This document shows positions 13,901 through 56,600 of a stretch of 64,000 nt of DNA, piece after piece. The translations under genes were made by a program, and so were the position numbers. Under the pieces are notes generated by a model. The model did not search any database. It was not told where the DNA came from and saw only the letters and a list, made by a program, of their open reading frames with translations. The stretch is from Escallonia rubra (Eukaryota; Streptophyta; Magnoliopsida; Escalloniales; Escalloniaceae), in the NCBI GenBank assembly GCA_033065855.1, contig JAVXUO010001779.1, positions 1 to 64,000 on the forward strand, in the 5' to 3' direction. The stretch's first letter is position 1, and every line of letters begins with the position of its first letter.

Positions 13901-14098
13901 TCTTGGAAAATCACTCGGGGACCATCTCAAGGACTTTTCAGCCATCACGACTTTCAGTCAATGACAGGGTCTTCTTTTCTCTACTTGATTCTGGATCATA
14001 GTGTCTTTCCCTGTACTTGTATGGCCTTCTATTTGAGGCAGTCTGATGCATTTGAGAACAATACGGTAACTCTCGAATATATTCCTCAAGGCTGCAGC

Positions 14099-17000
14099 AT
14101 GAATATGTTCACGAGAGCTGCTGTGGTTCTTTTCCTTGTCTGCCTCATTACAGCAACTACTAGCAATCGAAATTCCTCTATGTTGTGCTTAGAAAACGAG
14201 AGGCAAGCTCTTCTGAGGTTCAAGAATGATCTAACAGATTCTTCAGGCCGCCTCTCCTCTTGGAATATGGTGCACAATGACTGTTGTTACTGGTCAGGAG
14301 TTGTCTGCCATAGCTTCAATGGCCATGTCGTCGAACTCAACCTTCAAAACCCGAACGGAGATTGCAACTCTTTTGACGATTTATATGCTGAGAGGGCGTG
14401 TGAGAAGAACAAGTTGGGTGGTAAAATAAATCCTTCATTGCTCAACTTGGAACAGTTGAGTTACTTGGACTTGAGCCACAATGATTTTGGAGTGATTCAA
14501 ATTCCCAGCTTCATTAGTTCTTTGAAGACTTTGCGGTATCTGAACCTCTCTCATGCAGGATTCGGTGGATTAATTCCTCCGGGACTTGGAAATCTCTCAG
14601 ATTTGCGCACTCTTGATCTTGGATATTCTTCATATGGCTCTCTCAGAGCTGAGAATTTCAGATGGCTTTCTGATCTTTCTTTCCTGCAACATCTTGATCT
14701 AAACTTTGCAAACCTCAGCCAAGCTTCCGATTGGTTGCAGGTAACAAATATGCTTCCTTCTTTGGTAGATTTGCGCTTGTCGTTCTGCAATCTAGATCTC
14801 TCTGTTTCTCTTCCCAACATGGTCAATTTTACTAGGCTAGCCGCCCTCGATATTTCCTACAACCCGACATTTCGTTCTTCCCAACGAAGCAATTGGTTGT
14901 CTAGTCTCACTGGCCTTCGTTTTCTTAATTTAGGAGGCTGTGGCATTTCGGGTCCAATTCCAAGTGGTCTTGAGAACACGACCAGTCTTACACATCTTGA
15001 TCTATCTGGCAATTCTTTAAATTCTAGTATACCCCACTGGTTGTACCGTTTTAGAGGTCTTAATTCACTCGACCTTAGTATGAACAATTTACGAGGTTCC
15101 ATCTCAGATGACATTGGAAACATGACTTCCATCATCAACATTGATATGTCATATAACGAATTTGAAGGAAGAATTCCAAGATCCATTCAAAAACTCTGCA
15201 GCCTGGAGGCAATTAACTTGAAATATAACAGATTAAGTGACACGTCAGATGTTCTTCAAATGTTTTTCGGGTGCGGTATACATAGCTTGCGTGAACTTAA
15301 TCTTGAAAATTGTTCAATTAGTGGTCCACTCCCAAAGTCCTTGGGAGGATTGTCATCATTAGAATCATTGAACTTGGCTGATAATCAGTTCAATGGAACT
15401 CTTCCAGAGAGTATTGGACAACTGTCGAAATTAACGTCATTGTACTTGTATTCTAATCAGTTCAATGGAACTCTTCCAGAGAGTATTGGACAACTGTCGA
15501 AATTAACGTCATTGTACTTGTATTCTAATCAGTTCAATGGAACTCTTCCAGAGAGTATTGGACAACTGTCGAAATTAGAAGAACTTCATATTTATGATAA
15601 CAAGTTGGAAGGAGTTGTCTCTGAAGTTCATTTTGCCAATCTGTCAAACCTAAGAGTTTTTTATGGGGATAACAACCCTTTGATTTTGCAAGTCAGTCCC
15701 AAGTGGAGTCCCCCTTTCCACCTTCAAGTGTTGCTACTACGATCTTGGCGTCGCGTATCAAAATTTCCCAATTGGCTTCAAGCACAGCAAAGGCTGACCC
15801 TTTTAGATCTATCATCTACTAGAATATCTGATATTGTTCCCACTTGGTTTTGGAACTTCTCTTCTCAGTTAATTTATCTAAATCTCACTCACAACCAACT
15901 TCATGGAGTGATTCCATCCATTCCGAAAGTCAAGCTTACCTACGCCACGATGTACTTGAGCCACAACAGATTCAGCGGTTCGTTACCACGTCTCTCTGTT
16001 AATGTAACTGAGCTAGATCTTTCCAATAATTGGTTTACGGGAGGCCTTTCTCACTTCTTATGTGGCAGCACAGACAAACCAAACCAATTACAAATCCTTA
16101 ATTTGGGAGATAATCATTTATCAGGAGATATTCCCGATTGTTGGATGAACTGGCCGTCGCTAATATATGTAGCATTGGGAAACAACAATTTGAAGGGGAA
16201 CATACCAAGCTCCATGGGTTATCTTAGTCACCTGCGATCGTTGCACTTGCGCAACAACAGCCTCAACGGAGAAGTACCTATGGCTCTACAGAATTGCACG
16301 GAGTTGATGATAATTGACCTAAGTGAGAATGAGTTTTGCGGAAGCGTAACATCTTGGATGGGGAAAGGGCTTCTGAATCTGAATCTAATTTCGCTGGACC
16401 TTCGTTCGAATAATATTAGCGGTCAAATTCCTTCTGACATTTGCCACCTCCACTATCTTCAAATCTTAGATCTCGCAAACAACAATTTGTCAGGTGAGAT
16501 ACCAAGGTGTTTGGGAAATTTTACCGCCATGGCCACAAAAAGGAGTCTTATGGACGGCTCAGACGGGATTGAATACTTGTTTGAAGATGGAGCCAGGACT
16601 TTCTATGGACCAGATCGTTTTGAGGATGCTTATGTGGTGACAAAAGGAAACGAATTGCAATATGTTGCCACTCTGTCCCTTGTAACAAGCATGGACCTTT
16701 CAAGCAACAATTTATCCGGAGAAATACCGAAAGAACTAACCAGTTTGGTGGAGCTGCTATCACTCAATCTGTCAGGAAATCGTCTTACAGGAATGATACC
16801 GAAGAAGACTGGTGACATGAAGAAATTGGAATCTCTTGATTTCTCAAGAAATCAGCTCTCGGGTGAAATTCCTTCAAGCATTTCGAGTCTAACTTTTTTG
16901 AGCTATCTAAATCTGTCATTCAACAATTTGTCAGGACGGATTCCATCAAGCACCCAGCTCCAAAGCTTTGATGCTTCTTGCTTTATAGGCAACAAACTTT

Positions 17001-17245
17001 GTGGACCCCCAGTAAGCAAGGACTGCACTGTCAATGGTGTAACGCCTGATAATCGAAATGAAGAAGGTAAAGGTGATAGACCAGAAGTGGACTGGTTTTA
17101 CTTGTGCATGGCATTGGGATTTGCAGTAGGTTTTTGGGCCGTCTGTGGTCCTATATGGTTCATCCGGTCCTGGAGGCATGCCTACTTTCATTTCTTAGAG
17201 ATCATCTGGTGTAGACTATGTATTGCTTTTGGAATCCGTCGTTAA
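14099..17245 (+). CDS. LRR receptor-like protein, EIX2/Ve1/Cf class, intact
   Basis: Cell-surface receptor-like protein without a kinase. Members of this class sense microbial or fungal molecules and signal through SOBIR1/BAK1. The frame is open from 13961, but the ATG at 14099 puts a normal signal peptide first (MNMFTRAAVVLFLVCLITAT), giving 1048 residues; the ATG at 14105 is also possible. Order: LRR N-cap with CLENERQALLRF and NDCCYW (about 30-65), LRRs of the LxxLxLSxNxxxGxIP type, three identical-type LRRs at 430-500, a non-LRR island at about 803-863, last LRRs, C-cap with CGPPVSKDC, an acidic stretch, one membrane helix (about 999-1022) and a 26-residue tail. It looks intronless. The decayed relative just upstream suggests a tandem cluster. 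The target ligand cannot be read from sequence. Confidence 0.93.
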   Translation: MNMFTRAAVVLFLVCLITATTSNRNSSMLCLENERQALLRFKNDLTDSSGRLSSWNMVHNDCCYWSGVVCHSFNGHVVELNLQNPNGDCNSFDDLYAERACEKNKLGGKINPSLLNLEQLSYLDLSHNDFGVIQIPSFISSLKTLRYLNLSHAGFGGLIPPGLGNLSDLRTLDLGYSSYGSLRAENFRWLSDLSFLQHLDLNFANLSQASDWLQVTNMLPSLVDLRLSFCNLDLSVSLPNMVNFTRLAALDISYNPTFRSSQRSNWLSSLTGLRFLNLGGCGISGPIPSGLENTTSLTHLDLSGNSLNSSIPHWLYRFRGLNSLDLSMNNLRGSISDDIGNMTSIINIDMSYNEFEGRIPRSIQKLCSLEAINLKYNRLSDTSDVLQMFFGCGIHSLRELNLENCSISGPLPKSLGGLSSLESLNLADNQFNGTLPESIGQLSKLTSLYLYSNQFNGTLPESIGQLSKLTSLYLYSNQFNGTLPESIGQLSKLEELHIYDNKLEGVVSEVHFANLSNLRVFYGDNNPLILQVSPKWSPPFHLQVLLLRSWRRVSKFPNWLQAQQRLTLLDLSSTRISDIVPTWFWNFSSQLIYLNLTHNQLHGVIPSIPKVKLTYATMYLSHNRFSGSLPRLSVNVTELDLSNNWFTGGLSHFLCGSTDKPNQLQILNLGDNHLSGDIPDCWMNWPSLIYVALGNNNLKGNIPSSMGYLSHLRSLHLRNNSLNGEVPMALQNCTELMIIDLSENEFCGSVTSWMGKGLLNLNLISLDLRSNNISGQIPSDICHLHYLQILDLANNNLSGEIPRCLGNFTAMATKRSLMDGSDGIEYLFEDGARTFYGPDRFEDAYVVTKGNELQYVATLSLVTSMDLSSNNLSGEIPKELTSLVELLSLNLSGNRLTGMIPKKTGDMKKLESLDFSRNQLSGEIPSSISSLTFLSYLNLSFNNLSGRIPSSTQLQSFDASCFIGNKLCGPPVSKDCTVNGVTPDNRNEEGKGDRPEVDWFYLCMALGFAVGFWAVCGPIWFIRSWRHAYFHFLEIIWCRLCIAFGIRR
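15386..15580 (+). repeat. 72-bp in-frame LRR tandem repeat, 2.7 copies
   Basis: Units start at 15386, 15458 and 15530. Each codes for one 24-residue LRR (QFNGTLPESIGQLSKL then TSLYLYSN). The first two units are identical in DNA, and the third is identical until its last third, where it changes to EELHIYDN. Lack of silent differences points to a recent expansion of the LRR array. Confidence 0.95.
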
Positions 17246-36205: not shown

Positions 36206-37880
36206 GCAAGAATTAATTCATACAAGAAGATCTTGTCATTCCTGAAAGATTATGATCTATAAGAACAACAATTACCATAAAACATTTCAAAAGCATAATG
36301 TGACTAAACTTGAATTACACCAGCGGCATTAGCTGTAGGAGTCAATGGCTACATTAAAAGCTCCAGCATTTCCCAGGAAGAGTTGAATTTCGTCCCTAGA
36401 TTATTTACCGACTGGAAATACACAACCACAGCTCACCACAGTCGCTCGTTTATTTGCAACATCTTGTGCAGCTAGCACAAGAAACAAGCATGTAATGGAC
36501 GTCATCATGTTCAATAAATTGTCTACACCAGTTGTTCCCAGAAATATCATTGCAAGTGTCACGCAAGTTGCACACCAAATGTTTTTGCGCATAGCTGGAT
36601 TAAAAGAACATTAGGAAACTAGTGTTAATTATAGAAAGCAGAAAAATACCTAGGGCACCTATGAAAATGAACTATGATAAGAACGCTTGTGATCTTGAAA
36701 AGATTATGCCGCATTTCAAATGGGACTTCCAAAGAGCATATAGATGCAAATCCAACCATAACTGTGAGAACGAAACGTAGGAGCTGAAAGTGTTAACAAG
36801 ACTTGAAACATCCTAAAAGACGGCAGAGATTGTATTGTAGTTCCTCCAATTCTACACCCACATGCTGCTTCAGTCCCAGTGGTTTATTAAGACTTACTAA
36901 TTGTTAACAAGCATCTTGGTTGGTTACTTCACAGTCTTTGGTTCCCTGTCTGTTGATATCTTTTTACCAGAGCTCATTTCCTCCAAATAGGTGAAAACCA
37001 ATTTTCACAAAAAAAGTCCCTTTTGTCCCTGCCTGTTCTTTTAAAAGCTGCCACCTTCAAGCAGGGCACTTTTACATGAAAAATAAAAGAGAACTTGTCA
37101 ATCAAAGGACAAATATTCCCCGAGAAGAACGACAGCCTAACATACAAAGGCAAGAGCGAAACCAAGCAGCTACAAGCCTAGATCAAGTAGCCTCCATGTA
37201 TCTGTCACATCCCCGAGTAGTAGAAAATAACTGCCAAAGCGTTGAGACACTTTTAGCCGCTCATGTCCGAGAAACCAAAAGCAAATGCACGCTTCCGAAG
37301 CACTAGTAAACATCCAATAGATACAAGCAAACAAAAGAACTGAGTCACTCGTACTATAGTACAAGAAATGGAAAGATCCCAGCAAACTGAACACGATGGC
37401 ACCAACTAACTTAATGGCCAACAGGTACAAGAGCAATGGCAGCAGATTGTGGACCTCTGAACGGCTACCCAGTCAAGCAAAGGCACAAATTAAAAACATA
37501 TTTAAAAGGAACTCTTATGCATACCCTCTTTAGGGTACTTGCATTTTACAAACATATAGCTTTTAGACTCCAACAAATAGCGGATAATTACTCTTTATAG
37601 GATAAAAATGGCGTGCAAACATTAAGATATCTATAGGCACAAGATGAAAATTACAAAATTTAGCCTCGGACCTCGGGATATCATGCAGTATGCTAATTCT
37701 TTTGAGCATGAGCTTGCGATTATAACAGTCAAAGCTACGGTTATATGGCATGCACGCTATGGAGGAGGCCTAATGCTCCAGCATGTGGATCTCATGAGAT
37801 TTTATTTCCTAATCCTGGGTGTTAGCATCGACTCATTCCACGATCTACACGAATAACCCAATTGATTTTCAAGTTTTTAT
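36206..37880. other. Spacer between inverted arm and second CACTA, no gene recognised
   Basis: It holds several chance-length open frames. One on the minus strand (36401-36592) is hydrophobic and starts after an acceptor-like tccag, but I recognise no family. No element ends are seen. Confidence 0.4.
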
Positions 37881-38239
37881 CACCACAAGAAAATATGTAT
37901 TTGGCGACGGAGTTTTAGCGACGGAAGGTATTCCGTCGCTAAACATGTCTTTAAACGACGGAATATCCTGTCGTTAAAAATCCGTTGCAAAATACTATTA
38001 CTGACGGAAGACACCGTCGGTAAAAGTATTTTGCAATGGAGTTTTAACGGCGGACTTTTAGCGACGGACCTACCGTCGCTAAATATTTTTATAAAATTAG
38101 TAATTTTGAGTTTTTTTTTAAAATTATTTAAACGACGGAATAAAACCGTCGCTAAAAAGTCTGTCGCAAAAAGTCTTTATAATAAGACATTCACCGACGG
38201 AGTTTTAGCGACGGTGTTATTCCGTCGCTAAAGATCCTC

Positions 38240-39481
38240 CATTTAAAAACAGATCTGGTTTCTTTCTCTCTCCCCGTTCTCTCTCTGAATACCTGCTCTC
38301 ACCCACCCACCGCCGTTCTCACCTCCGGCGACCCTTCTCTACGGCGACCCAGCTCCGGCGACACTCCCGTCCCCCACCCGACGCCGCGCCACCAAGCCTT
38401 GCACTCCGGTCGTGCCACAAAGCCCTCCACTGTCGCCGCGCAACGAAACCCACCACTGCTGCCGCACCACCAACGCCGCCGCCGTCGTACCCACCTCGAG
38501 ATTTGTATGTCAATTGCCCTAAATTATCTGAATTTTTTGTTATTTTGTCTTCAATTTAGGTTACATGCCCTAAATTATGCCTGGTTTATTTAGATTTGTA
38601 TGTCAATTTAGGTTCAAATTTTTGTTAATTTGTCAATTGCCCTAAATTAGAGTACTCATCACTAATATACTAGTTATAGTTAGCTCTTTCGCAGATCAGC
38701 TTAAACTTCACCAACCTAGATTTAAGTGTAAATCCACCATTGATACCAATTTTGCCTGGTACAAGTGATGCAGTTAAACGAAATTTGGAGCTGTATTCTT
38801 GGTCAATGGATCATATCTTGATCTATACGTTGTCTTGGAGTTCACCATTGCGCCAGGATAAACAAAGACAATATTAAGTCGCCATCCAAGAAAAAGAAAT
38901 GAGAAAGCAACATTTAAATGTCAAGTCATGTGAATCTAATTTTGGGTTCCTCGAACTGCCAACTGGCAGGGGGATTGTGGACACTTGGCAAAGGGCAGTT
39001 GGGACTTGGGAGTTGACCCTTTGACTAGTATTGGACAAACAAGACAACAGAAGCTCCGTCACTCCAGAGATTTCAGCCTCATGGAGGTGACATTCATAGC
39101 CCAATACAAGATCATTTTTAGCATGCCCAGCCTGCATATACAACCCTTGGCTCAATTTAGAAACAAAAATAACAAGAACAAGAAGCTTGGTGTGCATAAA
39201 AGAAACATCAAACAAGAGAAGAGAAAACCTAAGACTATTTCTCAAGGTCTAGTCCAAAAATGGCAGATCCCCATAACGCACTTGAATGATGAAGATAGGC
39301 AATCTCAAGTCTCAGAAAGCAGGCAGAAAAGAATACAAGCACATACTCATTACTAGATCTAAGTCAAGCCTCCCACTACTTAAATGTAACAGTTCCAATG
39401 TAGAGCAACAAATAGCTGGGGTTTTGACTGCCAACATAAACTTATTACTAAGGTGTTCAAATTCCCCGATACACTCAATTC
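38240..39481. other. CACTA interior left part, unrecognised
   Basis: A GC-rich stretch (38280-38500, rich in ccgccg and ccggcgac) resembles a 5' UTR or first exon but has no recognisable protein. A short repeated text around tgccctaaattat (38515-38640) follows. The rest is anonymous. Confidence 0.4.
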
Positions 39482-40014
39482 TTAGGCTGATTTGGTATAG
39501 AAACGGATGCCAACAGCAACACCTAAGATTGCCAGGGGAACTAAGAACTGTAGAAGCTTGATGATGAACTCTGATGTCTTGTCCTGGTTGTAGTGAGGCT
39601 GCTTGGGATGAGTGTAAGTGGTCTTGGAGGGGATGGTTGCTGTGTCAATTTCGCCCACAAAGAATTCGTCCATCATTGCTCTTGCACTGCTACTATGGCC
39701 GACATCCTCAAAATCATCAGTTGCGTCCTTTCCTGCACGACACACCATTAGGAGCATTGGACCGAAATCTAGATACACATATAAGTTGGCTTCAATTCGT
39801 TCCCAGGACATCAGCTTCTTCAACAGTCAAGAGTCCAAAGTTAAGACTTGAAAACTTAAAGCAAACTTCCATGTGCGAGAAGATAAACATATCGTTACAC
39901 TTGAAACAGAAACATCAGCGTCTAATTAATCCTACAACATAATGTACCTGTGGCTGACAACAAAACCTCATCACCACCAGGATGATCATCCAAGAACTTT
40001 GTCACGTCATATAC
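39482..40014 (-). pseudogene. Cytochrome b5, last two exons captured in CACTA
   Basis: Cytochrome b5 is a tail-anchored ER haem protein that passes electrons to desaturases and hydroxylases. Exon 39948-40014 reads VYDVTKFLDDHPGGDEVLLS and ends at a GT donor. After a 215-bp intron, exon 39482-39732 reads KDATDDFEDVGHSSSARAMM, a linker, and the membrane anchor LLQFLVPLAILGVAVGIRF before the TAA at 39482. Both haem ligands (H of HPGG and H of VGHSS) are kept. The two exons splice in frame with no stop. The first exon (N-terminal third) is absent from the element. The piece is therefore incomplete but remarkably undamaged, pointing to a recent capture. It runs opposite to the B3 gene fragment. 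Confidence 0.9.
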
Positions 40015-40924
40015 CTGTTCCAACACAATAGAATTTAAACGGGTATAGAACTTTAGGAAATTAGCGAGAAATCATAAGCCATTCTCCCATAAGGCTAGCA
40101 GCTGCTCTATTAAACAGTAAACACTAAACAAAAGACATGGAGCTAAAACAAAAACATTAGGAGCCTCCAAATACTGCATTCTGGGTCAGCCTCCATCACA
40201 AAATTTTAGACATTCCAAAAAGGCCATCCAAACAAAGGGTACGCACGGTTGCTTTGATCACAGCTTTAATTTAAAATTCACAGTTTTAACTTCATAACTG
40301 CATTCTAGTAGTGATATTGTTTTTGACTTCTTTGTAGAAAATGTACGATCTTTTTTCAGTTTCACTATTCAATTCAGGCAATCAGAACCTTCCAAACAAG
40401 ATATTTGAATCCTATATTTGCATAGTTTGAAATGAAAAGTGCTCTGTCATTATTACATTGTTCTTTTTTGACTGGCTCTATGATTCAACTTTACAAGTCG
40501 CATAAACAGAATCGATAACCTATTGCATAACATAATTAAGAAAGCTTGAGGATCAGGCATAATTAAATATTGATAGAAATCACAACTATTTTCCAGCTAT
40601 ATAGACCTCCCACCAGGACCTCTATGTATAGACTACCTAAATCTTAACTAACGCTATGTATAGACTACCTAAATCGGCAACTTCCTCTCTAAATTCCACA
40701 TCGCAGCCACGTTAATACCTTCCGTGACATAGGTGGCTATTTGGGTGGTGAAATGATGATGTGCGTAGTTGAGATTTTTGTGGTAGTCATTTTAGCTACA
40801 ACTCACTGTGGATCTGTTTTTTTAGCATCACTTTAACATAATTTGATAGATTTAATTCAGCTATGAAATTGATGCTCGTCGATTGAATAATCATCGATTG
40901 GTTTTTCATGTTAAAGTAGGTTAA
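40015..40924. other. CACTA interior between captured genes
   Basis: AT-rich, with no coding region recognised. I searched it for a cytochrome b5 first exon on the minus strand and found none. Confidence 0.45.
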
Positions 40925-41361
40925 ATGGCTTCTGCTTCGGTGAACAGGGACGTTTCAGTCAACAGGCACTTCTTCAAGGTCATGATGCCTGGTTTTCATA
41001 CATAACTTGTATGTCATCCCGCTTTCTCTATGTTTTCGTGTGTGTTAAAAGTTTTATCTTTGGTTAAAAACTTACATGTCTTACTGTATTATGAATATGT
41101 TAGGCCATACCGGTAGCATTTTGGCGATTGCTTACCACATTGAGATTTGAAGCAACTTTAACCAGCCGCAAGGGGTCATGGCTTGTTAAATTGAAGAAGA
41201 AGGTTGGCCAAGAGGTTCTTTGCTTCGAAGAGGGTTGGAACGAATTCGTGCAACAACATGACCTCCATCTAGGAGACTTTGTAGTCTTTCAACACATGGG
41301 GCAAATGCGTTTTCAAGTCAGCGTGTTTGATCAAAGCACTTGTGAAAAGCCTTTCCCCTAA
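40925..41361 (+). pseudogene. B3-domain (REM-type) transcription factor, captured, with one stop
   Basis: B3 domains are plant-specific DNA-binding domains. Exon 1 (40925-41008) begins MASASVNRDVSV and reads HFFKVMMPGFHT, then an in-frame TAA where this family has lysine (HTKL). The donor gtatgt follows. Exon 2 (41104-41361) begins after ttag and reads AIPVAFWRLLTTL, then SRKGSWLVKL, CFEEGWNEFVQQHDLHLGDF and VVFQHMG, and ends with TAA. Together they make a single B3 domain of about 110 residues; REM proteins often have several. The single stop and the location inside the transposon make it a pseudogene. A shortened product starting in exon 2 cannot be excluded. Confidence 0.85.
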
Positions 41362-41885
41362 TGTTGAACTCTGAGGCGTAATTAGACAATATTTTAAATT
41401 AATCGCATCGGATATGTACATTTTGAACAATGTTGTGAACATTGACTATTTGTTTGATAATTTTAGGTTGTTAATTGTGATTATTGATCGATGATTTGTT
41501 AATCGATGATTTTAGATTGTTAATCGTGCATTTGATATATTGGGATTGTTGACGGAGGATGGAACCCAATTGGTTTGAATTTTTTATTATAGGTTTGGGC
41601 ATTAAAAAATTAAAAAATGACTTTAACTTTTAGCGACGGATTAATTCCGTCGCTAAACATTTTATCCCGTCGCTAATTTTGTAAAAAAGAAAATAAATTA
41701 AAGTACGTAAAACATAATTAGCGACGGATATTCCGTCACTAATTCAGAAATAAATCCGTCGCCAAAAGTTCTATATTAGACGACGGATTTTATAATTCCG
41801 TCGCAAAACTTTTAGCAACGGCCTTTTATACGAGGGACTTTTAGCGACGGTAATTCCGTCGCTAAAGACCTTATTCCTTGTAGTG

Positions 41886-43914
41886 TATTCACTATTAAAA
41901 GCCTGGCAAAATGGCATGCTTCAAGTTTACTATCTAACATCAATCCGAACGATATCAACTGCCAAGTGAAATGAACTCTAGTGCACATAACATGATGCAG
42001 TTTGAATAACTTTTTGTGTTTTGATGAGTAAGCCAAGCGAGATTACAAATCAGAACACATTATCGATAATCCCAGCCCAAATTGTGTAATCTATAACTTC
42101 CAACGACATGTTAATTTATAATTGAGCTATTGAACATCCACATAACACCCATAGGCGCCCTAAGGTAACAAACCATAAGCAATATTCGAAAACCATAGTG
42201 TAAGTTGCAGAAAAAAGCGTCTCAGAGAATAAAAACTCTATCTCAATCTTATGGATGGATTTCCAATGTCTAATCCAAGTTTACCTTTACAAAAAAGGAT
42301 TACTCTAGGATCTGAAACAGTACATGAAAGTTTGACGTAATCCCAACTTGTTAATCATCACTCTATGTGAATGATGTACAATCCACGAAAAAAGAAGGCA
42401 CATTTCTAAACTACAACGTTTGAACTTGTTACACTAAAGCACAAACCTTATACATAGATGTTAACTACACCACCGCATTTATGTTACTAAAAAGTGTCGC
42501 TAATTCATGTTTAAGCTACAAAAGGGCACGAAATTATCCAAGAACGGACACGCATGCACGTGTGTGCGTACCTGGAGAGGGCAACGAGAAGGAGAATGCG
42601 TTTGGAAGGAGACTTGGAACCAGTCAATCAGATAATGAATCAACCGAATTATGAGTTCTTGCCAAACAAGGCCGATAACTTTGAATAGCATGCTCCATTG
42701 ATCCATCAGACCATCACTATGCATAATCGATCAACTCGGAGTTGATAACAAAAAGTTGGTTGAATGACAAATTCTGGTGTCAATCTTTGGTAAAATTGAG
42801 CCACATCTGTTTGTCAAAGAGTTTTGAGGAAAGTGAGCTTCTTTTGACCACTCAGAATGCAATGGAAATGCCATTCATGGCTGCAAATGAAGATCAACAT
42901 TTTCCAGTTGACGGGTTGGTGAGTAGTGAAGATTGCATGCAAGGGGGGCATATTTGCAAGCCAACAATGGCTGAAAACAAAAAATAATTAGCCCCTTCCG
43001 CCGATAAAATAATAGACACAGAGTAATAATGTCAGTTCTGAATATTTTAAGAAGCCATCGATGGCTTTTGATTTCAAGCAACCAACCCACTTTAAATGAA
43101 TTTTATCATCTTGACATCACAAATATTGGCAAGAAAAGCGAGTTATCAAAGCCTCTTTTGACAAAAGCAATTTAATATCCACACTGGCTTTGTGGATCTC
43201 ACCAATACAATTAAAAGAATGTCCTTTCAAGGAAAGGCCTATCTAAAATGTTTTCTCTAAGAACTGGCATTTAGGCCTAAAGTAGAGACAAAGTGAAGAG
43301 CAGAGACAAGAAATCCGGACTCCATCCCATGAAAGAGATATACTAATACGATAAGGGAGAAGTAGGAATTATTCTTAGATCTACCATTGAAGCTGTAAGA
43401 TTTCTGGTCTCTGCGTATTCCCTTCTTTTATATGTGAAAATATTAAACAGGCAAAAAGCGCACAAATTTCCGTAATAATCTAACATTTGCTTTGATTCAC
43501 GGCTTTCAATACAATTATTGAACACTTAATGATTAATGTCAAAAACAGCCTAATTTCCATGGATCTTCTTCCAACTTATTGTTCCTTTATAACTTCACAT
43601 ATTTGGATACACCACAGAAGATTCAAACCTGAGAAACTGCAGAGCTGTGGCAGTGCTAATATTCATAATTGGGAACTCTTTAGAGATATCTCACTGGATG
43701 TTGCAGGTTCACAAGACCACCGTGAAGTTTGTTCATATGCATGACGCGTTAGTAAGAAGATCTTAACACTTATCCGCCTTTAGAATGCAACTTAGTTCTC
43801 ATGACAGACAACATATGTCTGAAACGGCAGGAAAGGGGTAGTGAAACAAAGAAATGAGTAAGTACGAAAGAAATCTTGAAATCTTGGTTTATCGTTGCAT
43901 ACAGTGGTTGCACC
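41886..43914. other. Intergenic, possible stray retroelement piece at 42742-42990
   Basis: Mostly anonymous AT-rich DNA. At 42742-42990 (+) an open stretch ends with a phrase (ICKPTMAENKK) that resembles VCKPILAESKK in the interior of the LTR element at 44155-46960, with matching DNA around tttgcaagcc. It may be a diverged fragment of the same family. The rest, including the 3' flank of the LIP2 pseudogene, shows nothing. Confidence 0.4.
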
Positions 43915-50989: not shown

Positions 50990-51359
50990 ATTTCACCCCA
51001 GGGGATGCTAAAAAATATCGAAGTCGGTACTATAGCTCAATCCAATTGGATCCCATTCTCCATTAACAATCTCAATTCTCAAGTGATCAATGCACAATTA
51101 ACAACCTTAAAGCATCAAGTAATAATTTCAATTCTCAAATGCACAACTACCAACTTAATATTATCAATCAAACAATTAATTCTTGAATGGGGAAAAAAAT
51201 TGTTAAAAATGCACAATGACCTCAGTCTTCAGAAGTCAGAACGGCATCGTTGTCGCCGGCGGTGGAGTGAAGGCTGAAGAAGATCGTTCGTCGCAGGTTG
51301 AGGTCATTTCGTCAGTTCGTCCGGCTCGTAGGCGGAACCTTCATGTTCTGAAAGTTGCA

Positions 51360-53677: not shown

Positions 53678-56600
53678 CTTCCCCTCAAGTTGGAGCATGG
53701 ATATTTGAAATGCCAAACTTGCCCAGTAAAATGTGGAAGCGTTCCTGACCAAGTGCCTTGGTGAAAATGTCTACAAGCTGATACTGAGACAAAATTGGTC
53801 GAGGTAATAAAGCTTTGGACTGAGTATGGTGCCGAACAAAATGACAGTTTATTTCAATGTGCTTTGTGCGCTCGTGGAACACTGGGTTCGCCACAATGTG
53901 TAATGCGGCCTGATTGTCACAAAATAAAGAAACTGGATTTTGATGAGAGACCCCTAAATCAGAGAAGATTCGAAGAAGCCAAATAATCTCACTTGCGGTG
54001 GTGGCCATTGCCCTGTATTCTGCCTCAGTGGTGGAACGCGAGACTATGGATTGTTTCTTGGAACGCCAGGAAATGGGTGAAGATCCCAAAAACACGATAT
54101 ACCCAGTGGTAGATCTGCGAGTTGTTGGGCAGCCAGCCCAATCGGCATCGCAATAAGCACGTAGTGATAGAGAACTGTTGGAGGAGAGCAAAATACCTTG
54201 ACTGGGCGAGTTTTTGAGGTAGCGAAGAACGCGTATGGCAGCATCATAATGTGGTCGTCTTGGCTTGTGCATGAATTGACTTAGGATGTGCACTGCATAA
54301 CTTATGTCTGGACGAGTGATCGTGAGGTAGAGTAATCTGCCAATGAGACGTCTATACTGTCCTGGATCATCACATAGTTCTCCTGAATTAAGATCAAGTT
54401 TATGTTGTTCAGCCATGGGTGAGGAAGATGGCTTGCAACCTGTTAGACCATATTTTGTTAAAATGTCAAGAACATATTTGCGTTGGCTTAACACGATGCC
54501 ATCAGAAGAACGTGCCACCTCAATGCCGAGAAAGTACTTGAGTTTACCGAGATCCTTAATATGGAACTTAGTATCCAAGTAGTGTTTTAGCGAAGAAATT
54601 TTAGCTGAATCAGTCCTCGTGACAATCACGTCGTCAACATAAATAAGGACAACAAGAAAAGATCCTTGACGAGTGAAGGTGAATAAAGAATGATCAGATT
54701 AAGACTGAATAAAACCTAATGCAAGTAAGCACTGAGTAAACTTGTGATACCAATTGCATGAAGCCTGACGAAGCCCATAAAGAGACTTTTGAAGGCGACA
54801 CACACGATTCTCCCCCTGTTTAGAAAAACCTTGAGGAGTCTTCATGTATACTTCCTCTTCTAGATCTCCATGCAAAAAGGCGTTGTTGACATCCAACTGA
54901 TGGAGTTCCCATTTCTTTATTGGAGCAATGGCAAGAAGATACTGCACTGTAATTAGTTTGGCAATTGGCGCAATTGTTTTATGAAAATCTAGACCTTCAA
55001 TCTGGGTGTATCCCTTAGCCACAAGTCGTACTTTGTATCTCTCCACAATGCCATCTGGGTGGAATTTGACTTTGTACACCCACTTAGAATCAATGGCACG
55101 TTTCCCAGATGGTAATGGCATAAGTGTCCAAGTGTTATTAGCTTCCAAAGCAGAGATCTCCTTGGCCATGGCATCCCTCCAATGAGCATGTTTCACTTCC
55201 TGAGAAAAATATTTGGGCTCATCGACCGAAGAGATGGCCGCTAAAAATGCAGTGTGAGTTCTAGAAAATTTGGAATAAGAAATATTATGGGACAAAGGAT
55301 ATATCGTCGAGTTAGCAGATGTAGAGGAAGAGTGCGAAATAGATGAAGGCGGGGCAAGGGATGGTGACAATGTATAATTGTACCCATAAAGATTCTTGGA
55401 CACCTGTCTCGTGCGCTTAGAAGGTACAACCGGAGGTTCATTCACAGGTAAGGCAGACTGCTCAGTTCTGATGGGTGACTGTATGGTAGATGGATACAAC
55501 TCAGCAAATCTTGGGGCTTGATCTAAGGGTATCTAGTCTTGGGATGAGGATGCTCCCAGAGATAGGGGTTCAGGGTCGATGTTGTGGGGTGAGATTGATC
55601 TAGTTGGCACATCACTGGTCTGAGTTGATTCATTAGGTTCACCTGTGGGTGCATGGCTAGTTTCTTGACACTCCCAATCAACTGAAAGATGATCTGTTAA
55701 CCCAAAAGGAGTGTGGCAAGCTTGTAGGTCAGCAATATTATCTTTTCTGTCAGCAAAAGGGAATATGCTTTCAAAAAATTGAACATCTCGTGAAGAATAA
55801 ATCACTTTGCTCTCCAAATCATAAATCCTATATCCTTTCTGCCTATTGGGATAACCAACAAAAATGCCAGGCTTACTTCGAGGGGCGAACTTATCATGTG
55901 GCTTTCCATTCATGTGCCCATAACAGAGACATCCAAAAGTCAGCAAATGATTATAGTCAGGTACCTTACCGAACCATACTTCATAAGGTGTTCGGTTTTG
56001 GAGCACAGAAAGTGGCATGCGGTTGATTAAGCAAGCAGCGGTAAGTACGCACTCCCCCCAAAATCTGACTGGAAGTTTGGCCTGGAATCGTAAAGCTCTA
56101 GGTACCTCTAAGAGATGTTTGTGCTTTCGCTCCGCCACTCCATTTTGTTGTGGTGTATCCGTGCAGCTTGTTTGTCTGTCCATTCCATTCTCAAAATAAT
56201 GATGTAATAATTCGGATGTCCAAATTCAAGACCGCTATCAGTTCTAAAAACCTTGATTCTGGTGTTAAATTGTGTCTTAACCCAGTTGAAAAACATCAAG
56301 AGGTAGTGTCTAGTTTCGGACTTGAATTTCATGAGAAAGACCCATGTAGCTCGACTATGATCATAAAAAATCGTGAGAAAATAATGTGACCCAGAATAAG
56401 ATTTAGTACGATATGGACCCCATATATCACAATGTACTAAATCAAAGTTGTGCATCGATTTATTTTATTTTGCTATGTGGAAAAGGCAATTTAGTTTGCC
56501 TGGCCTTGCAACAGGCATCACAAAATAAAAGTTTTGGCGAATTGAAAGTAACAGCTAAGTTGGAAACCAACAATATACGGTTCATTGGTAGATGCCCTAA

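Follow-up and report, generated by a model that had tools for sequence, protein, structure and literature searches.

A gene-carrying CACTA transposon is reported to have been described in Glycine max by Zabala and Vodkin in 2007, with host gene fragments inside it, as in the one considered here. Our subject is a transposable element in a 64,000-nucleotide stretch of the Escallonia rubra genome (contig JAVXUO010001779.1, positions 1 to 64,000), called the window below and forming part of the contig that we label C398 in a 566-Mb assembly of 3,222 contigs. The element carries pieces of a cytochrome b5 gene (b5) and of a B3-domain gene in opposite directions. Unlike the Glycine max case, it can be compared with both the donor of the b5 piece and b5-less forms, and a single family shows repeated rearrangement of the middle.

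The closest described systems are the Pack-CACTA or Pack-TYPE elements (Catoni 2019, as cited by PMC8903248 and PMC13317346). In the sections of PMC8903248 used here, these elements have CACTA-type ends, a 3-bp target duplication, no transposase, pieces of host genes and several copies, and some of them combine more than one source locus, all of which recurs in our element. The same sections propose that they form by the fusion of neighbouring elements; the corresponding sections of a 2026 review (PMC13317346) also give fusion and add that another capture mechanism possibly still awaits discovery. In contrast to what these sections describe, the donor, the b5-less sisters, the empty site and the product are found here in one genome, a filler duplication marks one junction, and the right-end module of the family includes a B3 gene as well. 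A further parallel in the sections of PMC13317346 used here is Kaonashi (KIU), in which MULE elements of one group carry a Ulp1 domain. There, as here, one host-type domain has spread through a transposon group, but our group is CACTA and not MULE, the domain is B3 and not Ulp1, and its pattern of change is near-neutral with no clear sign of functional retention. In the open literature searched, we found no CACTA element with a B3 domain, and no gene capture by gap repair with a template switch, only targeted recombination; for a CACTA element with a captured cytochrome b5, the same literature gave only rapeseed root mapping.

We consider it very probable that a piece of b5 replaced 446 bp in one member of a CACTA family and that the resulting young Pack-CACTA element multiplied, one of its copies being inserted in the window. 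In this genome we observed the element insertion, the empty site, a capture at the DNA level, the donor, the b5-less sisters, the junctions and the copies. The element starts at 37881 with CACCACAAGAAAA and ends at 41885 with CTTGTAGTG. The right end, read inwards, is CACTACAAG, and the left end is CACCACAAG, one base away from CACTA/G, with the C present in 43 of 43 exact left ends. Thus the termini are inverted repeats of the CACTA (En/Spm) kind, and short repeats of the GCGACGG/CCGTCGC families crowd both ends in both orientations. Perfect and mutually distinct 3-bp target duplications flank five of the six full b5 copies (TAT on C398, ATA on C1684, GGA on C1211, GAT on C235 and ATC on C2688). 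When the flanks of the window copy are joined, they align to C374:31873-32234 over 362 of 362 bases at 97%, with a single TAT in place of the element; C1837 gives a second match to the whole query, at 77%. Because this empty site and the donor locus show them directly, the element ends are correct, and the original prediction of a CACTA element with clear ends and a TAT duplication is borne out by ends, repeats, copies and empty site alike. No transposase lies inside, the longest stop-to-stop frame being 138 aa both in the element and in an arrangement that includes 758 bp found in other copies. The element is therefore of CACTA type, young and non-autonomous: a Pack-CACTA, a known kind.

The b5 exons 2 and 3 are joined by GT-AG splicing in a single open frame of 105 codons and retain the histidines of HPGG and VGH, which we take to be the haem ligands of b5. 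The Pfam Cyt-b5 match (1.2e-19) covers only positions 22-73 of the 74 in the profile and lacks the beginning of the domain, so that the complete haem-binding domain and the start codon of a functional b5 are not there. The exon-1 motif had no match in the whole window, and none in the undeleted arrangement with the 758 bp. The donor exon 1 gave no tblastn match to the window, while the same tblastn recovered the exon in the donor, and blastn returned only a 12-base chance match (E 0.57). In fact, a first exon to the right of 41885, which would have made the gene a resident one, was looked for across the window and not found. Because exon 1 is absent, the element is unable to encode a whole b5, and the piece, judged from its sequence, most likely makes no b5 at all.

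The missing exon lies on another contig, C2602. A genome search with the b5 region gave 14 places, of which 12 are in elements, one is C2602 and one is C1513, a resident b5 paralogue (85% over 74 bases). C2602 matches positions 944-2744 of the element and no other part of it, and the 5.9 kb of C2602 examined held no other element match, terminus or GCGACGG repeat. The gene there is intact, with three exons, GT-AG introns, 134 aa and a full Cyt-b5 domain (3.9e-30): exon 1 (MGADGKVYTLAEVSEHSDSKDCWLVISGK) occupies C2602:153625-153711, 1.45 kb upstream of the captured segment, exon 2 C2602:155771-155837 and exon 3 C2602:156053-156303. Because of the match boundaries and the position of exon 1 outside the match, C2602 is either the donor itself, one of its alleles or a closely similar copy; the same two facts led us to reject it as a seventh element copy. 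The next closest resident b5 frame, on C2369, is only about 63% identical over 88 residues, with synonymous differences saturated. The b5 piece is thus host coding DNA with its donor elsewhere, as in other Pack-CACTA elements.

The site that received it can be seen in b5-less members of the family. On both sides of the capture site the C2924 element (L035) matches the b5 copies, and in place of b5 it has 446 bases of other sequence. This acceptor stretch is unbroken at C2924, C2596, C1712, C1650 and C126 (99-100%), each place being accompanied by the B3 module or the left end of the element family, and at 87% identity on C1698 (C1698:501673-502305), with 31 of 31 candidates scored. The b5 copies match the acceptor at its two edges only. 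Since the C1698 match is more diverged, the unbroken form is suggested to be the older one, so that b5 would have replaced the 446 bp. At the left junction 2 bp are common to both partners (TA); at the right one 3 bp are common (CTA), followed by a 22-bp repeat of a sequence lying 10 bp further on. Both junctions are present in six of six full b5 copies, the exact left-junction pattern being missed in C398 and C1684 solely through single changes beside the junction.

We found 13 element copies with b5 sequence. Both exons are present in six (C398, C1684, C2688, C1211, C2427 and C235), exon 2 only in five (C2206, C1395, C493, C316 and C2284) and part of exon 3 in one (C2429); the last, C2489, has upstream intron sequence alone, cut by the contig end, and lies outside the b5-region query, so it is counted beside the 12 element places of that search. 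The element has thus multiplied with its cargo, six copies keeping both exons and seven keeping pieces. Measured along the captured segment, the divergence of the six full copies is 0.61-0.83% from the donor and 0.66-1.00% from one another. Their exon changes, relative to a consensus equal to the donor, are small in number (4 nonsynonymous, 2 stop and 3 synonymous) and look as expected of a young, unconstrained copy. A shared stretch of 339 bp was compared in 11 copies, and all 11 depart from the donor at the same one position; this speaks for a single capture event and makes a second capture a disfavoured source of the exon-2-only copies.

Those exon-2-only elements (L008 on C2206, L054 on C493, L060 on C316 and L061 on C1395) have other sequence left of exon 2. 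The replacement measures 456 bp in C316 and is interrupted in the three others, L064 on C2284 shows its last 46 bp, and the stretch is partly common to further family members. Where b5 meets the right part in C316, the two have 3 bp in common (CAT). These arrangements amount to a second reshuffling. Elsewhere, the element copies L030 (C1971) and L038 (C1970) agree base for base over their left 1.5 kb and have one right flank in common, on separate contigs; the assembly may contain both haplotypes or duplicated contigs, and copy counts may include alleles.

The B3 gene has a different distribution. The right-end module that holds it (approximately window 40716-41866) occurs at at least 156 places, far beyond the b5 copies. 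In the B3-region search, 40 of 40 scored matches (the best 40 of 1,266 candidates) were 99-100% identical, a range in which a diverged donor would be missed. Where the DNA of an element locus extended far enough, the right terminus was found beyond the B3 region, in 28 of 28 loci. The two exons are separated by an intron at 41009-41103, and the family consensus encodes a 113-aa protein (Pfam B3, 2.6e-13; closest solved chain At1g16640, E 0.002). The window copy has one stop, which at first appeared private to it (1 of 32 copies); this was rejected when more copies gave 2 of 52 and then 8 of 156, the codon at 41003 being GAA in 148 and TAA in 8 of 156 exact 28-mers. Among 52 aligned copies, which are among the closest to the window and no random sample, 34 are open and indel-free as far as the consensus stop, an internal stop interrupts 4, and there is an indel in 1, an altered splice site in 1 and an altered terminal stop in 14. 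The distinct variants are 36 nonsynonymous (including the terminal stop change), 18 synonymous and 3 stop, compared with a neutral expectation of 2.6-3.7 nonsynonymous per synonymous and 2.8-3.6 stops; the nonsynonymous deficit has p 0.04 to 0.36, depending on the assumed transition bias. This pattern of variants appears close to neutral, and the frame is most likely open in most copies through youth.

Elements with the common right part fall into groups by differing left sides. A frame with DVVDDAFDMPRHG, which has no Pfam match, occurs in 7 of 23 left flanks and in 3 of 4 further stretches. No Pfam match was obtained for four frames from other element copies. A leucine-rich-repeat (LRR) frame adjoining the element in L031 was considered as cargo and is most likely not: C558 has a resident 1130-aa receptor-like frame beside an element. 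The 758 bp by which the window copy differs could be taken for an insertion in the others, but other copies share parts of the 758 bp with other left sides, and the window copy most likely lost them, to judge from this comparison.

Seen against these results, the original prediction was right that two unrelated host-type genes are represented in the element by fragments that face opposite ways (Pfam Cyt-b5 minus, B3 plus), and the search that it proposed for other copies brought the number with both b5 exons, the window copy included, to six. The perfect splicing and both haem-ligand histidines that it reported for b5 are there, in a gene that is truncated and whose exon 1 stays on C2602. Its single stop in the B3 gene likewise exists, as a minority allele. 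The search for donor genes that it called for found the b5 donor and no B3 donor. The B3 gene is no one-off captured cargo, being part of a module at 156 or more places. The original prediction called captured genes so well preserved uncommon and held that they could still be transcribed. Their preservation is no evidence of function: for b5 it reflects the youth of the element, the changes among the six copies looking neutral, and for B3 the counts above are near neutral too.

For the source of the enzyme, the genome has 2,228 candidates for PF02992 (Transposase_21-type), of which 150 were scored. Among these 150, many places with equal score hold one 761-aa CACTA transposase frame, suggesting that an autonomous CACTA family has recently expanded in a burst. 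On C442, about 900 bp from the neighbourhood of this frame recur at 98% on the left side of a B3 module. The likeness on C78 and C442 hints at kinship with the 761-aa transposase type and ties no enzyme to the element ends. Window 51033-51125 is 85% like DNA upstream of the 761-aa frame on C78 and is possibly another CACTA remnant.

To explain these results we propose the following course of events. An element family has spread through the genome, its members sharing the right-end module with B3, several of them the left end as well, and the middle varying by subgroup. In one member, a 446-bp internal stretch was replaced by 1.8 kb of the C2602 b5 gene, copied as DNA with its intron included and exon 1 left behind. 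The new element then multiplied, some copies being rearranged again and one inserting here with duplication of TAT, and mobilisation would have been by a CACTA transposase supplied in trans. Abortive gap repair occurs in plant transposons. We prefer double-strand gap repair with template switching as the route of capture, at roughly even confidence, because the loss is small, 2-3 bp are shared at both junctions and one junction has a templated repeat. The detailed version, for which our confidence is just short of even, is an interrupted repair in which the polymerase leaves the element, copies 1.8 kb of b5, re-enters, copies 22 bp, slips back and finishes.

A different route is the one proposed for Pack-CACTA in the sections of PMC8903248 and PMC13317346 used here: two family elements flank b5 exons 2-3, facing deletions remove their inner ends, and the outer ends move jointly. 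We regard such a fusion as a tentative but real possibility, since it yields the same order of left part, gene and right part, and since deletion repair can leave microhomology and filler. However, the acceptor lost just 446 bp, a figure that two independent deletions in elements of about 4 kb would seldom give (a rough 1 in 8, and so a weak argument), and no element sequence lies outside the segment in the 5.9 kb of C2602 examined. That the b5 gene is resident, with element ends that are wrong or belong to two separate insertions, would agree with its two well-spliced exons and both conserved histidines. The single-TAT empty site, the same ends in different flanks, the failure of motif and donor-exon searches to find exon 1 in the window and the complete gene on C2602 make this extremely improbable. 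Equally little weight goes to reverse transcription of a b5 mRNA, given that the captured segment matches the gene at 98.3% and still includes intron 2, some of intron 1 and DNA from the 3' flank. The B3 protein, for its part, might be maintained by selection as a working component of the transposon, such as a DNA-binding helper recognising the element ends, as the constant position of the right terminus after B3 (28 of 28 loci), the open codon in 148 of 156 28-mers and nonsynonymous changes slightly below neutral (36 to 18; p 0.04 to 0.36) could suggest. We think this unlikely: three distinct stop variants were found, as under neutrality, the TAA allele sits at 8 places, and B3 has no match in the 9 kb surrounding each of two transposase frames (L089 and L090).

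Several observations weigh against our account of the capture and spread. The repair footprint fits the fusion of two neighbouring elements almost equally. One shared site is thin evidence for a single event. The target duplication of C2427, the sixth full b5 copy, is mismatched, and the empty site on C374 may be a paralogous locus instead of an allele. The separation between C2602 and the elements is known only as one of different contigs in the assembled sequence. The B3 donor was not found, with only 40 of 1,266 candidates scored and no other donor search made. Finally, 9 kb around an 875-aa transposase frame (L089) contain none of the ends or repeats of the element family, and 9 kb around the 761-aa frame (L090, C78:9500-18500) contain only the 76-79% match and two GCGACGG; neither stretch shows ends of its own, and both may stop short of them.

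Table 1. Positions of the element and of its parts in the window.
Feature	Positions	Strand	Evidence
Target duplication TAT, left copy	37878-37880	.	Sequence; one TAT at empty site C374:31953-32154
Non-autonomous CACTA-type element with b5 and B3 gene pieces	37881-41885 (4,005 bp)	+	Ends, target duplication, repeats, copies at other loci
Left terminus, opening CACCA instead of CACTA	37881-37910	+	30-mer: 43 genome occurrences, reversed-pattern control 0
Left subterminal repeats, GCGACGG / CCGTCGC in both orientations	37897-38240	.	Repeat families D1-D6
Captured host segment: part of intron 1, exon 2, intron 2, exon 3 and 3' flank of cytochrome b5	38824-40624	-	Corresponds to C2602:155161-156976, 98.3%
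Cytochrome b5 exon 3, closing with stop codon	39482-39732	-	Pfam, splicing, copy comparison
Cytochrome b5 exon 2	39948-40014	-	Pfam, splicing, copy comparison
22-bp filler at right capture junction, copy of 40654-40675	40622-40643	.	Repeat family D13; junction comparison
Filler template, in b5-less C2924 without adjoining filler	40654-40675	.	Repeat analysis; junction comparison
Site of 758 bp absent from window copy, present in C2427, C2433, C2489 and C2924 copies	40716-40723	.	Copy comparison
B3 exon 1, with the minority TAA stop at 41003-41005 where the majority of copies have GAA	40925-41008	+	Copy alignment, 28-mer counts
B3 exon 2, most of B3 domain	41104-41361	+	Pfam B3 2e-12
Stretch resembling, at 76-79%, DNA that precedes the 761-aa CACTA transposase frame on C78 by about 2.2 kb	41395-41588	+	Sequence comparison
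Right subterminal repeats	41625-41866	.	Repeat analysis
Right terminus CCTTATTCCTTGTAGTG	41869-41885	+	17-mer: 417 exact genome copies, reversed-pattern control 0
Target duplication TAT, right copy	41886-41888	.	Sequence; empty site

Around the element, a 1,094-aa frame at 13961-17245 (plus strand) has leucine-rich repeats like those of receptor-like proteins. Because close relatives of it lie nearby at C398:64746 and 95789 and also on C558, C445, C374 and other contigs, the window lies in a cluster of receptor-like LRR genes. Two frames at 53685-55499 (minus strand) are presumably pieces of a copia-type retrotransposon polymerase.

How DNA transposons acquire distant genes is an open question according to the sections of PMC13317346 used here. 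The present capture is unusually well resolved, with b5-less elements, donor, product, empty site and junctions in one genome and less than 1% divergence from the donor, and its value lies in the completeness of this record, not in a working b5 gene. With these pieces preserved together, the two capture routes lead to distinct expectations, which other haplotypes or relatives would allow to be checked. Interrupted gap repair, if true, would be a concrete case of the alternative route that the same sections of that review raise. In addition, a DNA-binding B3 frame spread by a transposon to at least 156 places could cause confusion when genes are annotated and transcription factors counted.

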